A model generated the notes under the pieces. The model had not been told where the DNA came from and made no database searches. It saw only the letters and a program-made list of their open reading frames with translations. A stretch of 64,000 nucleotides of DNA from Polychytrium aggregatum (Eukaryota > Chytridiomycota > Chytridiomycetes > Polychytriales): NCBI RefSeq assembly GCF_025602895.1, contig NW_026516272.1, forward strand, positions 183,715 to 247,714, in the 5' to 3' direction. Below, piece by piece: positions 13,586 to 64,000 of the stretch. Numbering within the stretch: position 1 is the stretch's first letter; each line of letters begins with the position of its first letter. Made by a program: the position numbers and the translations under genes.

Positions 13586-17071
<3,486 letters not shown>

Positions 17072-17481
17072 ACTGCATCTGCATGTTGAGGCCATTGTCC
17101 CATCATGTTTCTTGTTTCTGTTATAATCGACCACTGCTCCCTCCTGAGCAAACACCGGGTTGTCAAGTTCATTCCAATTGGCGCAACGATTTAATCGCCA
17201 TCTTCTTTGCCTTGGACTGCTTTGCTCCGTCCACTTTATGATTCTTTCCAGCTTATCATCAGAGTCTGCATTCACCCTGGGGACATGTGCTGGCCTGGCT
17301 CAGCGTGGCCGTTCAAGAAAATATAGTCCTTGCAGCGTGTTCGGAACGAAACGGGACAGTGCCCGTTCGTGCGCATTCACATCAAACACTGCTTCTTCAT
17401 AGAGAACGAGATGCTGGGGGTGTGTGACATGTTCCGACCACGGCAGGTTGTTGTCTGAGCGGGACGATGGGACCTGTTGTT
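17072..17481. other. MEF1 3' flank with a stray transposon-type end
   Basis: No gene is seen. At 17348-17360 GAAACGGGACAGT repeats the terminal motif of the neighbouring Fanzor element (same sequence at 17498-17510), 150 bases outside that element. It may be a solo end or a nested copy. Confidence 0.6.
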
Positions 17482-18116
17482 TACAGTCGGTCAGAAAGAA
17501 ACGGGACAGTTCCTTCCTGGCTTCAGTTCTCTGAACCCCGCTGACTGACTTGTAGGCCCAGCGGGCAGGCCGTGAGATTGTTTCCCGTCTTGGTTGGCAA
17601 TCGAGTGGTTTTGGTTGGTTTGGGAAGCATGGTCTTGAATACACCCGGCCGATCTCCTGTGGCGATGATCGACTGGCATACCGAGATCATGTTCCTTGAG
17701 GCATTGATGTCTCGATGTGGGAGTGTGGTGGATGCATTCGACCCTCTGCACAGCTTCATGGTTTCTCGATATCAAGATGCTCAGCCTTCTCGAGTCGCTT
17801 GGCTTCCCGACAATGTGAGCACACCTGTGATGTGTTGAACTCGTTCACCGAGCACACATGGATCTTGGAGACGGATCGGTCTGGTGGGCGTCTCTGGTGG
17901 TGGGTGAACTGCTCAAAGTACTTGGCAAACCTGAGCCTCCTGGGACTGGATGCGTATCCCTTCCCTTGCTTCCACAAGGCATTCCCAAAGACAGCCACCA
18001 CTTCGGTCTCCTTGGACATACTTGCTTGGCCATGAATGCGATGAATGGGTGGGTGTATTCAGGTTCCAGAAAACACACTGTCCTGGTTAAAAACGGGGTG
18101 TCCCATTTCATTGTGG
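17482..18116 (-). mobile_element. Fanzor (eukaryotic TnpB) element, copy A, degenerate
   Basis: About 635 bases on the minus strand. The 5' end (plus 18095-18108) reads AAATGGGACACCCC; the 3' end (plus 17499-17510) is the inverted partner of the same AAACGGGACA core, followed by a conserved TTTCTTTCTGACCGA. The same ends are found at 33.1-33.7 kb and, for the left end, at 63.74 kb. Inside is the C-terminal half of a TnpB/Fanzor-like protein. No clear target-site duplication could be fixed, since the true borders are not sharp. The element is too short for a complete Fanzor gene and must be non-autonomous. Confidence 0.75.
17523..18019 (-). pseudogene. Fanzor/TnpB C-terminal remnant of copy A
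   Basis: The first frame (18019 down to a stop at 17756) shows VFGNALWKQGKGYASSPRRL, then VCSVNEFNTSQVCSHC, which is the TnpB strand, the TSxxC zinc-ribbon entry and the first Cys pair. A second frame, offset by two bases, carries HRDINASRNM, the RuvC-III motif with its catalytic Asp, and ends at 17523. The second Cys pair expected between them is degraded. No RuvC-I or RuvC-II acidic residue was recognised. TnpB/Fanzor proteins are RNA-guided DNA nucleases; this copy cannot make one. Family assignment rests on motif order and spacing. Confidence 0.75.
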
Positions 18117-18660
18117 AAACGCTGTACCAGGAGGCACTCGACATCAAGATCAAGATCTATGGCACACGAGAACACCCCTCAGTTGCCGCCACTTTACACG
18201 AAATATGCAATGTAAAATCACTCCGGTTTGCCGACGAGGCAACAATCAAGCACTAACAGGAAGCGCTTGACAACTTCACCAGTGGCTATCACGCTTGTGA
18301 GCATTCTCACATTGGGTTGGCTCTTGATGGACTTTGTGAAGCAGCTCCTGACCAAAATCGCAACGACGATGCTGTCAAATACTCTAGCGAATCGATCGAT
18401 ATTTACCATAGACCATGGCACTCATGAACGTGTAGGTGTTGCTACAGCAGTTCACAATCTTGCAATCATCTCCCTTGACAACGGCCGTATCGATGATGCA
18501 GCCAAGTATTACCAAGAGGCGCTCGAGATTCGCACCAAGCTGCTCAAATCAAGAGAACATGTTGAAATCGCCAAAACCATCCGTGTTCTGGGGGAAGTCG
18601 CCACAAAGCAGGGAAGATGCGACGAGGCTCTGTCCCTGCTCCAGGAGCCAGCGTGTGACC
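18117..18660 (+). pseudogene. Broken TPR-repeat gene (kinesin-light-chain-like repeats)
   Basis: Right at the left end of Fanzor copy A starts a run of TPR units: LYQEALDIKIKIYGTREHPS, then after a stop and frame change EALDNFTSGYHACEHSHIGL, and after another change VHNLAIISLDNGRIDDAAKY, YQEALEIRTKLL and ALSLLQE. The repeats match the TPR_12/kinesin light chain type used in large fungal and bacterial TPR proteins. No start codon or splice set restores one frame. The rest of the gene is not found on the other side of the element, so it is a fragment rather than a cleanly split gene. Confidence 0.65.
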
Positions 18661-18807
18661 GGCGCTGGCGTCATCATGAATGCGACGCCGCAGCTTTTCT
18701 TTTGGATCCGCTTGCTTGCCAACGCTGGAGCTCCCTTCTCTTGAGCCCGTATCTTCCCGAGCCTGCATCTCGCCGCTCATTCCGCCGACAACCTCTCGTC
18801 CCCGCCC

Positions 18808-19670
18808 ATGACTCCCGCCGGCACACCAGCGCCATTCAGCGTACAGCCGATCGACGGGCTGGTGCTCTTCCAAGACTTTATCTCTCCCGAGCAGGAGGCG
18901 GATCTCATCCACAACCTCGACTCGCGGCCCTGGGCTGGAAAGGGTGTGCCTCCCAACGCTGAGCTTCGCCGGCGGACACAGCAGTACGGCTTCCTGTTCT
19001 CGTATCGATACCGTCGCATCGAGGAACACACCGGCGGGCTGCCCGAGTTTCTGCATCCCGTCGTCAGCCAGATCCAAGTCCTGCCCCCGGCCCCACACCA
19101 CGAATACGAGTCCAAATCAGCGCCTAATTTTCTCGTCGTGAATGAATACGAAGTCGGCCAGGGCATCATGGCGCATACGGATGCAAGTCTCTTTGGCGAG
19201 ACGATCTGGGTTGTTTCGCTGCTGTCAAGCTGTGTGATCTCGTTCTTCCGGGATGACCGCAAGGTCGACGTCCTCCTTCGTAAGCGATCTGCGTCTGTGG
19301 GCTGGCCATGTGCGCATGAATGTGCCGAGTGGGTGCTTGGCAGGTCTCTCGGGGTCTGGGATCGCTGTTGCTCGCCCTCTCTGCCTGCATCGCTCTGACG
19401 ACTCGGCTTCGTTGCTGCCCCGCCGGCTGCCTGTTGCTGTGCACAGCGCCTCGCTCGTTGCTGATCATGAGCAGAGAGTCCCGATTCGCTTGGAAGCACG
19501 AGATCTCGAAGCAGCCGATCGACTACTATGACGACGTTCCGATCGAGCGATCTCGGCGGGTGTCGCTTACGTTTCGCTCTGTGGATGTGAACGGCGTCGG
19601 AGCAACGACCGATTGCCGGCTGGGTGCTGATCCGGGCTCGCCGGGTCCTGTTGCTGGAGATCGGCAATAG
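18808..19670 (+). CDS. AlkB-type Fe(II)/2-oxoglutarate dioxygenase, ALKBH8-like
   Basis: Two exons, 18808-19279 and 19447-19670, give 231 residues. The jelly-roll motifs are complete: QQYGFLFSYRY, GGLPEFL, NEYEVGQGIMAHTD with the HxD metal ligands, then PPRSLLIMSRESRFAWKHEI with the distal His, and RRVSLTFR with the 2-oxoglutarate-binding Arg. These blocks resemble the AlkB domain of ALKBH8, which hydroxylates wobble uridine derivatives in tRNA. The methyltransferase and RRM domains of animal ALKBH8 are absent; in many organisms they sit on separate proteins. ALKBH6 or ALKBH4 type cannot be fully excluded. The start ATG is 147 bases after the broken TPR tract. Confidence 0.88.
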
Positions 19671-33055: not shown

Positions 33056-33080
33056 TCTCTCTCTCTCTCTCTCTCTCTCC
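33056..33080. repeat. (CT)n microsatellite
   Basis: Twelve CT dinucleotides, ending about 35 bases before the left end of Fanzor copy B. Confidence 0.9.
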
Positions 33081-33112
33081 CTTTCCTTTCTTTCGTCGGC
33101 ATTCTTACAGTC

Positions 33113-33743
33113 AATCCAATAAAAACGGGACACCCGTGATTTTGACGATTGATCAAATATTTTGTTACCCAAGGCCAATGCACGATGGCCATGACCATTC
33201 TGTGATTTGAATCAAGGACGCCATTGTGGGAATCGCTTCCAGCTTCAAGACGCGCTGGATGAGCACCACACCAAGTCCCAAGATCCCTGGGTTGACTTCC
33301 TTCCTGCAATACATTCGCCATGTGTTCGATGGAGACATGTTGGAGAAACAGCTGTACTTCAGCCTGACCCAGCGACGGCGGTTCAAGCGACTCGATCTCC
33401 AGGTGTGCTCACATTGTCGAGAAGCCAAGCGACTCGATAAGGTCGAGCATCTTGATATCGAGAAACCACACTTGTCCGGAGCTGTGCAAGCTGCCATACG
33501 CTGTGGGATCGAGACATCAATGCAGCCAGGAACATGATCTCGGTATGCCAGTCGATCATCGCCACAGGAGATCGGCCGGGTGTATTCAAGACTGTGCTCC
33601 CGAAACCAACCAAAAACAAAGAGATTGCCAACCAAGACGGGAAACAATCTCCCGGCTTGCTCACTGGGCCTACAGTCAGTCAGCGGGTTTCAGATATCTG
33701 AAGCCAGAAAGTGACTGTCCCGTTTCTTTCTGACCGAATGTAT
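33113..33743 (+). mobile_element. Fanzor element, copy B, degenerate
   Basis: About 630 bases. The left end reads CCAATAAAAACGGGACACCC (33117-33136) and the right end CTGTCCCGTTTCTTTCTGAC (33715-33734), so the core AAACGGGACA is inverted at the two ends. The left 90 bases match copy C (GGCCATGACCATT start included) and the right 230 bases match copy A. The middle lacks most of a Fanzor coding region, so it looks like an internally deleted, non-autonomous derivative. Confidence 0.75.
33406..33701 (+). pseudogene. Fanzor zinc-ribbon and RuvC-III remnant of copy B
   Basis: The first Cys pair QVCSHCREAKRL is at 33403. Two bases out of frame, the second pair and the catalytic motif are intact: VRSCASCHTLWDRDINAARN, with the RuvC-III Asp at 33513-33515, then MISVCQSIIATGDRPGVF and a stop at 33701. 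This order (CxxC, CxxC, W-D-R-D-x-N-A-A-x-N) is specific to TnpB/Fanzor. The start codon shared with copy C is followed three codons later by a stop (MTIL). The 33226-33400 stretch is open in the first frame but shows no motif I know. Confidence 0.78.
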
Positions 33744-51846: not shown

Positions 51847-52960
51847 CGAGGCAGTGAATAATGACGATCTCTGGATCGCCAGGGAGATGCTTGCGGGAGC
51901 GGTGCGAGCTGGGCCGATCAGATGCTATGTATCGACCAACGACAGAAAGGTTGAGTGCAGTATGCCCCGTCGAGGACCAGCGGATATTGGCGATCTTGGG
52001 AATTGCGTTGCTGGAGAGCGGTGGATTTGAGAGAGCAGAGGCGCACCAATCGATCGTATGCCAACGCAAGGATGCGTAGGATGCAATCGCCGCAAGAGAA
52101 GGTGGCGACGGCAATGGATATCCGCTCCACGCAAATGCCCAAGAGACAGCCATGCCCCGACTGGCGGTGGAGGGAGAAGTAACCGGATCCCTTGCTTGCC
52201 GCTCCGCAACTCAGACCGTGGGAGAAAGCCGCAGCCCAGTCCCGCAGAACCAGCATCGGCACATCTGTGCATCAGTGCATCGGTGCATCAGTGTATCGGT
52301 GCGGCATGGCTCGTCCTCCCCATCAGTGATGCAACCGAGGATCTCTTGCTGATGCGCTCCCTCTAAGACCTTCGAGCCGAGATCAGCCCGCCGAAGGTCG
52401 CCGAGCAGCGCCGCTCTTTGGAGACACGCGCGGCCGCGAAAGAGAAAAATGCTCCGCTCCAATCCAACTCCAGGACATGACCTGCCCATCGGATTCGGGC
52501 CGCTGAATACAGAGGCTGCGGGCACCGCAGCTGACCTCGAGATATGACCACGGGCTGGTGCGCGCTCGGTTCGTATGAGCTGCATCCGTGCGCTCATTCG
52601 ATCGCCGTTCACGAGCGACGATCGCCCGACATGCCAAGATCATGTTCCCGGCGGCACTGGAATGAAGAGAGTGGATGTATTCATGATCCCAAAACAGAGT
52701 GGCTATCGACACCAAAAACGGCACTTGTTGCATCCAGGCGAACAGCACATCAATGCTGCCGCTGCAATGCGCCGCCTCAATAGTCTCGAGGAGGACATCC
52801 GAGCCCGATTCCGCGGCACACAATCTCGACCCGACCGTCGTCCAGGGCGGAAGTCTCAAAGCGGGCCTGTCGGTGTGGATGTGTGTGTGTGTGGGGAGTG
52901 GACGAAGTGGACCATCGGATCGAGGCATATCGGCGTTACATAGGCGTCGCAGCTTGAAAT
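51847..52960. other. Intergenic, RTCA 3' side / membrane-protein promoter
   Basis: 1.1 kb with no recognised gene. GCATCGGTGCATCAGTG direct repeats lie near 52264-52305. Confidence 0.6.
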
Positions 52961-63199: not shown

Positions 63200-63740
63200 G
63201 CTGGGCTGGCTTTTCTGTCTCGACCCAGAGTCGGTGCGTCAGATGGGGGGAGGGCGTAGTTTTCGATGTTCAGGGGGCTGCGATGACCGGCGAGAGGGGC
63301 GAGCAGCAGCTCTTGACATCGTCGAGACAAACGAGCACGGATATGTCTGACCCGTGGGGTTGACAATGCTACTTTCGCGGGGGGAGGGAGGGAGAGGAGC
63401 AGGGCGATGCCAGCGGCCTTACCGGATCGCCGGGGTCGGGCATCCGGCTGAAGAGCGATGTGTTGCTGCTGGGCCATTGGAAGAGGTCTATCGGAGGCGA
63501 TGCCTCTCTCTCGACGCTTCCAGAATCCGGCTCCATCAGGCTGAAGAGGAGATGTGTCGATGGTGGATCCTGAGGGTGTCTGTCGAGGAACAGGGTCGAG
63601 AAGAGATCGGGGGCAGACGGATGCCGGATGCCGAATGCCAAAAGCTGGGTCTTTCTTCGGCCTTTCCCACACAGCCCCGTTCCACTCTCACATGCAGCCC
63701 GCGATCATCTGGGAGCCCGAGTGTTGATATTACAGGCGAT
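63200..63740. other. Spacer before Fanzor copy C
   Basis: No recognised gene. It holds a short GATGCCG-type repeat at 63620-63640. Confidence 0.55.
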
Positions 63741-64000
63741 CCAATATAAACGGGACACCCGGGTTTTGACCATTCATCGAATATTTTGTTACCCAATGTT
63801 ATCGCGCGCTGGCCATGACCATTCGCCACACATCCGACTTTCGCACTGCCGCATTGCGATGCTACGCCCTCATCCATAGCCTGCGTAAGGTCGCCTCCAT
63901 ATTCAGTGTATCCAAGAGCACCATCCATCGAGGCACCGAGGATGCAAGCTGGATGACCCATCCCGGGTCCCAGCTCGCAGATCCATTTCTTCGAGCAGGC
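63741..64000 (+). mobile_element. Left part of Fanzor-family element, copy C
   Basis: The left end CCAATATAAACGGGACACCC is the same as in copy B, and homology continues for about 85 bases (GTTTTGACCATTCATCGAAT, ATATTTTGTTACCCAA, GGCCATGACCATTC). The element runs past the window edge, so length and intactness are unknown. Confidence 0.7.
63815..64000 (+). CDS. N-terminal helix-turn-helix of a Fanzor-element protein (partial)
   Basis: From an ATG that matches the broken start in copy B, 62 codons are open to the window edge. The sequence FRTAALRCYALIHSLRKVAS, IFSVSKSTIHR is a helix-turn-helix of the transposase/resolvase kind (S-x-R-x-VA-x-x-F-x-VS-x-x-T). Fanzor1 proteins are known to carry extra N-terminal DNA-binding domains; here the link to Fanzor rests on the shared element end with copy B, whose right half has RuvC-III. 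Alternatively it could be the first protein of a host transposon that carries Fanzor as cargo. The 3' end is missing because of the window limit. Confidence 0.6.
   Translation, partial: MTIRHTSDFRTAALRCYALIHSLRKVASIFSVSKSTIHRGTEDASWMTHPGSQLADPFLRAG

Follow-up and report, generated by a model that had tools for sequence, protein, structure and literature searches.

Internally deleted copies of a TA-flanked transposon that probably encoded a Fanzor1-type nuclease in its full-length form

The locus described here, a 64 kb stretch of DNA (the window), raises the question whether the related short sequences found in it are copies of one transposon, whether that transposon carries a Fanzor gene, and by what it is moved. 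Two of these sequences, c1 and c2, are probably dead, internally deleted copies, in a eukaryotic genome, of a TA-flanked transposon of Tc1/mariner type with terminal inverted repeats (TIRs), the full-length form of which would encode an RNA-guided nuclease of Fanzor1 type. This explanation draws directly on the common ends, the adjoining TA, the C-terminal TnpB/Fanzor remnants with a rearranged glutamate, and on the frameshifts and the loss of the central part of the gene. Coordinates of all features, including a third copy (c3), are compiled in Table 1.

Table 1. Features of the transposon family in the window, with the basis of each assignment.
Feature	Position	Strand	Basis and remarks
c1, internally deleted Fanzor element copy	17482..18126 (645 bp including both TAs)	-	Ends and self-comparison; leftmost 9 bases doubtful
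c1 right TIR with TA	17482..17508	-	27-base end pattern, 0 mismatches
c1 left TIR with TA (degenerate; exceeds the other TIRs by one base)	18099..18126	-	28-base pattern version, 3 mismatches; profile E = 0.07
c2, internally deleted Fanzor element copy	33106..33742 (637 bp including both TAs)	+	Ends and self-comparison
c2 left TIR with TA	33106..33132	+	27-base end pattern, 0 mismatches
c2 right TIR with TA	33716..33742	-	27-base end pattern, 0 mismatches
c3, third copy, left end only (truncated at the window edge)	63731..64000	+	Aligns with c2 at 84.4% over 96 bp; end pattern fits without mismatch
Possible isolated remnant of a right end, outside c1	17340..17363	-	nhmmer E = 0.11; exact 10-mer AAACGGGACA
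c1 Fanzor remnant VFGNALW...VNEFNTSQVCSHC...DIEKP, rearranged RuvC-II glutamate and first CxxC	17759..18019	-	PF07282 E = 0.00071, 20.1 bits alone
c1 Fanzor remnant, different frame, RDINASRNM...GDRPGVFKT with RuvC-III and the C-terminus	17610..17741	-	Alone no Pfam match; second CxxC not recognisable
c2 open stretch, upstream residues running straight into QVCSHC...DIEKP (zinc-ribbon start)	33211..33495	+	Most of the piece alone: no Pfam match
c2 Fanzor remnant, different frame, CASCHTLWDRDINAARNM...GDRPGVFKT, second CxxC and RuvC-III	33477..33614	+	PF07282 E = 0.00028, 21.4 bits (slightly longer piece, alone)
Possible far-decayed relic of a Fanzor C-terminus, SAAGNMILACRAIVARERR	52602..52694	-	45 bp at 80% to the c2 RuvC-III region, blastn E = 2.2e-5; tblastn E = 0.33
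c1 right-end region, candidate omega-RNA scaffold	17482..17581	-	Two hairpins in common with c2; fold z = -1.35
c2 right-end region, candidate omega-RNA scaffold	33643..33742	+	Fold z = -2.59; c2 left end also -1.94
c3 open-frame start with HTH-like stretch HSLRKVASIFSVSKSTIHR	63815..64000	+	Weak HTH matches, all below cut-off

The copies are delimited by their ends. The 10-mer AAACGGGACA has exact matches at 17349(+), 17499(+), 33123(+), 33716(-) and 63748(+), i.e. five in the 64 kb against a mean of 0.06 in 100 dinucleotide shuffles, none of which reached five. A longer, 27-base end pattern, TACANNCNNTCNNANNNAAACGGGACA, fits without mismatch at the right end of c1, at both ends of c2 and at the left end of c3, and no further place in the window fits it with up to 3 mismatches; the mean of 0.02 in 100 shuffles is to be read with the pattern having been derived from the very ends it fits. 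The left end of c1, which the 27-base pattern misses, carries AAATGGGACA at 18099-18108, which is AAACGGGACA with one mismatch, and its TA lies one base further out from the 10-mer. It is caught by a 28-base version of the pattern with 3 mismatches (7 of 100 shuffles had one match or more). A profile built from the left ends of c2 and c3 matches it weakly, starting only at position 10, so that the outer 9 bases stay outside the match. This terminus is the weakest of the ends and is doubtful; an open frame passes through it and on into a TPR-like gene fragment.

In their right halves, c1 and c2 agree at 85.6% along 348 bases up to the common right terminus, and the alignment of the left ends of c2 and c3 starts one base outside the common TA. 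TA adjoins the TIR on its outer side at all five ends (with the doubt just mentioned for the left end of c1), the common sequence starts with TACA at five of five ends and with TACAG at four of them, and the sequence beyond the TA differs between ends. TIRs flanked by TA, as in Tc1/mariner elements, are seen at all five ends, again with the left end of c1 doubtful; the flanking TA may be part of the TIR rather than a target duplication. TIRs beginning with CAG are typical of Tc1 elements. Judged from sequence, the TIRs and the TA beside the ends point to Tc1/mariner, and they may likewise point to carriage by a eukaryotic non-IS607 transposon, as expected of Fanzor1 rather than Fanzor2.

An earlier note on this DNA had placed copies with common inverted ends at 17.5-18.1 kb (-) and 33.1-33.7 kb (+), and a third left end at 63.74 kb. 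Both copies and the third end, which starts at 63731, were recovered, and the proposal that the ends define a transposon was borne out: it is a TIR element whose ends abut TA, degenerate at the left end of c1. The limits of the two copies were revised and now run from TA to TA, 17482-18126 and 33106-33742.

Other sequence lies close to these boundaries. Approximately 125 bp beyond the right end of c1 and in the same orientation, AAACGGGACA recurs within 17340-17363; this may be a solitary end left by an older copy, with c1 inserted into that copy or next to it. On the other side, a TPR-repeat coding stretch at 18125-18959 (PF13424, 3e-12, ORF 18216-18959) seems to start at the left end of c1, and this TPR gene may have been interrupted or truncated by c1. 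EF-G/2 domains III and IV (PF14492, PF03764) at 15749-16507, part of an EF-2-like gene, are found about 1 kb from c1, and a (CT)n microsatellite at 33058-33080 lies approximately 25 bp upstream of the left end of c2. Over the window, EF-G/EF-2 domains, WD40 and F-box proteins and TPR repeats were recognised by Pfam in 4 of the 10 open frames given; the remaining six comprise one phosphatase match below cut-off and five frames without match. This domain content and the GC content of 59% are consistent with a eukaryotic chromosome.

Between the ends, c1 and c2 contain pieces of the C-terminus of a TnpB/Fanzor gene. The cut-off of PF07282 (TnpB/Cas12f zinc domain) is 26.3 bits, and the single pieces of both copies all stay below it. 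When the frameshift of c1 is bridged with one X, the match rises above the cut-off (9.2e-7, 29.4 bits); both c2 pieces bridged in the same way come to 24.4 bits, just under it. In c1, the glutamate of EFNTSQVCSHC stands exactly six residues ahead of the CxxC and is the rearranged RuvC-II glutamate, whereas the stretch ahead of CSHC in c2 differs and is without it. The pattern Ex2[ST]Sx2CxxC occurs once, compared to a mean of 0.05 in 60 shuffles. Bare ExxxxxxCxxC also fits, by chance, a second place in c2, ahead of its other CxxC, and the bare glutamate pattern is therefore not specific alone. The RuvC-III motif RDxNA is present in both copies, as RDINASRNM in c1 and RDINAARNM in c2, and RD[IVLF]NAxxN[MIL] occurs twice, whereas 60 shuffles gave a mean of 0. 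The second CxxC is CASC in c2 and is not visible in c1. The CxxC zinc ribbon (CSHC) and the RDINAxRNM motif claimed in the earlier note were accordingly found in the copies, and its assignment to TnpB/Fanzor agrees with c1 exceeding the PF07282 cut-off, c2 lying just below it and the rearranged glutamate in c1.

The RuvC-I motif DPG was found in none of the nine frames read from c1, c2 and what is visible of c3; c1 and c2 lack the central part of the gene, and c3 is cut. The full published Fanzor pattern, which includes both CxxC pairs, likewise fits no frame among these nine. PDB sequence searches listed no Fanzor for the remnants; with the RuvC-III piece, Cas12m and TranC came out best (E 0.004-0.04). 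TnpB matches in NCBIfam were weak (E 0.0055 or worse), and the AlphaFold model of the c1 piece (pLDDT 51.6) was too poor for a fold search. Scans of viral contigs with three window pieces, one two-row alignment and the right-end 20-mer gave no relative. Elsewhere in the window, the stretch at 52602-52694 is possibly a much older Fanzor relic, judging from its similarity to c2.

Among the PDB matches, designed 'Pizza' repeat proteins were rejected as sums of sub-threshold repeats, and so were beta-2-microglobulin and receptor matches (E 0.57 to 1.5).

Each about 640 bp long, c1 and c2 are internally deleted and frameshifted and lack the middle of the gene; thus, neither can make a working nuclease. 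Of 62 codons compared between them, 13 differ, 7 synonymously (dN 0.053, dS 0.264, a small sample); the lean towards synonymous differences in this small sample points to sources that were still coding at the time of divergence. The divergence of approximately 15% is no sign of recent movement. The earlier note's idea of an active or recently active family found no support in this window: both copies are deleted and frameshifted, they are about 15% apart, and DPG was found in neither of them nor in the visible part of c3. Copies of SPu-1, an element of about 2.1 kb, are described as approximately 92% identical to their own consensus (PMC3627910), so that, by inference, SPu-1 and the present family may be similar in age.

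The right ends were examined as candidate sources of an omega-RNA. For SPu-1 of S. punctatus, a right-end RNA of 88-90 nt is described, consisting of a 75-nt scaffold and a 14-15-nt guide (PMC10432273). The right ends fold mildly better than shuffles (c1 and c2, z = -1.35 and -2.59 for 100 nt, -1.13 and -2.13 for 80 nt), compared to z = -0.07 and -1.94 for the left ends used as controls, of which that of c2 folds about as well as the right ends. In the last 100 nt of c1 and c2, two common hairpins pair in 10 of 10 and 21 of 22 cells. No compensatory changes were found in these hairpins between the two right ends, the pair count of the two-sequence alignment was reached by 500 of 500 shuffles and has no support above them, and Rfam gave no match at gathering scores. 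The predicted folds are compatible with an omega-RNA yet give no evidence for one.

In c3, a frame starting with MTIRHTSDFRTAALRCYALIHSLRKVASIFSVSKSTIHRG opens behind the left end, and 62 residues of it are visible before the window edge. Among HTH models, SpoIIID matched best (E 0.001), followed by HTH_psq (0.03) and HTH_23 (0.042), none above cut-off, and the HTH-like piece had no PDB match. A single-sequence AlphaFold model (pLDDT 66.2) consists of one long helix with no HTH and was too poor for a fold search. No catalytic (DDE) domain of a transposase was recognised in c1, c2 or the visible part of c3. By its sequence, the frame weakly suggests the N-terminus of a transposase or of a Fanzor. 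As to what mobilises the family, which the ends could show according to the earlier note, the TA beside the ends and the weakly HTH-like start of c3 are hints only.

Two matters have to be weighed, namely what the remnants are and what moves the element. It is very improbable that the remnants derive from an unrelated zinc-ribbon gene or from a TnpB other than Fanzor. Such an origin would agree with a match that is short and above cut-off in c1 alone with its frameshift bridged, with the missing DPG, and with the fact that DINAARNM by itself also occurs in a bacterial ORF (L001, 4800-5507), the sole confirmed genome-contig match among 95 stretches fitting a pattern. This ORF, which we take to encode a chain-length-type membrane protein, was rejected as a relative because the protein looks unrelated, and it shows that the motif alone does not identify a Fanzor. 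However, the glutamate, TS..CxxC and RDINAxRNM occur together, in this order, inside one copy bounded by the common ends, and no unrelated zinc-ribbon family, the alternative for which the earlier note had proposed a check, matched better: for the c1 remnant, the Pfam search listed no family other than PF07282. Of the two marks that combine to the Fanzor fingerprint, DPG and the rearranged glutamate (PMC10711439), c1 shows the glutamate only; taken alone, this mark is described for some TnpBs and is missing from most (PMC10711439).

With c1 and c2 read as deleted copies of a Fanzor1-carrying Tc1/mariner-type transposon, the transposase may be encoded by the element itself or act in trans, and these are two sub-readings of the same explanation. 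On the former, c3 would be the 5' end of a two-gene Tc1/mariner-Fanzor element moved by its own transposase, a gene which c1 and c2 would have lost. We consider this possible, if somewhat doubtful: the HTH-like frame opens directly after the left end of c3, and PGv-1 and PUl-1 are described as carrying both genes (PMC3627910), but the 62 visible residues give weak, sub-cut-off matches without a PDB counterpart, the model shows a long helix of low confidence instead of an HTH, and no DDE domain was recognised. On the latter, the HTH would be the N-terminal DNA-binding domain of the Fanzor itself, with the transposase supplied by another element. This, too, is held tentatively. The open stretch of c2, IKDAIVGIASSF...FLQYIRHVFDGDML...RRRFKRLDL, is in one frame with the Fanzor zinc region, but c2 is deletion-joined, hence such adjacency proves little, and the upstream stretch has no Pfam match of its own. 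In S. punctatus, no transposase was found between the ends of SPu-1 (PMC10432273), which agrees with a supply in trans; the presence of an HTH in Fanzor1 is left undecided in PMC3627910. A still more specific combination is unlikely, namely that c3 begins a full-length element with a Tc1/mariner-type DNA-binding domain, fused to or beside the Fanzor, and so provides the kind of mobiliser not found for SPu-1 in S. punctatus, while the deleted copies c1 and c2 donate guide RNA in trans.

For the transposon that probably gave rise to c1 and c2, the following course is proposed. A DDE transposase would act on the TIRs and move full-length and deleted copies into TA. A full-length copy would make the Fanzor, which would pair with an RNA transcribed from the right end; the bases directly outside this end would presumably serve as guide. 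The Fanzor would then cut empty sites, which would favour keeping the element. Deleted copies retaining the right end could still supply guide RNA, as proposed for the ghost copies of SPu-1.

With this window, one more host genome probably joins those in which a TA-flanked Fanzor transposon occurs together with shortened copies of it. If c3 is intact beyond the window, it would reveal which transposase or DNA-binding domain works with Fanzor, a partner that the S. punctatus study did not find between the SPu-1 ends (PMC10432273). In the literature searched, in ways other than by host species, there was no earlier report of the family.

Fanzor1 within Tc/mariner elements with TA duplications was published in 2013 (PMC3627910). 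By description, the closest likeness is to SPu-1/SpuFz1 of Spizellomyces punctatus, which has TIRs of about 30 bp (given as 33 bp, with putative TA duplications, in PMC3627910), TA at its ends, a Fanzor C-terminus and shortened copies retaining both ends. For S. punctatus, partial copies and ghost copies of about 550 nt are described, and the count of 2023 gives 42 loci at which the Fanzor gene is full-length (19 of them) or partial, besides 134 ghost loci that have no ORF (PMC10432273). While these ghosts have no Fanzor ORF, c1 and c2 retain pieces of it and are thus nearer to the partial copies. Full-length copies of SPu-1 exist, whereas none is visible in this window, and the conserved CA described before the left end of SPu-1 is not found directly before the TA at any of the three left ends here. 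PGv-1, PUl-1 and PUl-4, the Tc/mariner-Fanzor1 elements described in PMC3627910, are alike in their adjoining TA, TIRs and Fanzor cargo; a transposase is described for PGv-1 and PUl-1, compared to a possible HTH start only in c3. Bacterial TnpB of IS200/IS605 and IS607 shares the zinc domain and the RuvC-III motif, but the elements studied here differ by TIRs with TA and by the c1 glutamate in its rearranged position, which is described as lacking in most TnpBs. Since c1 and c2 fit the picture from S. punctatus and come nearest to its partial copies, c1, c2 and c3 appear to be one more case of an element type that has been reported before from a fungus and from further eukaryotes.
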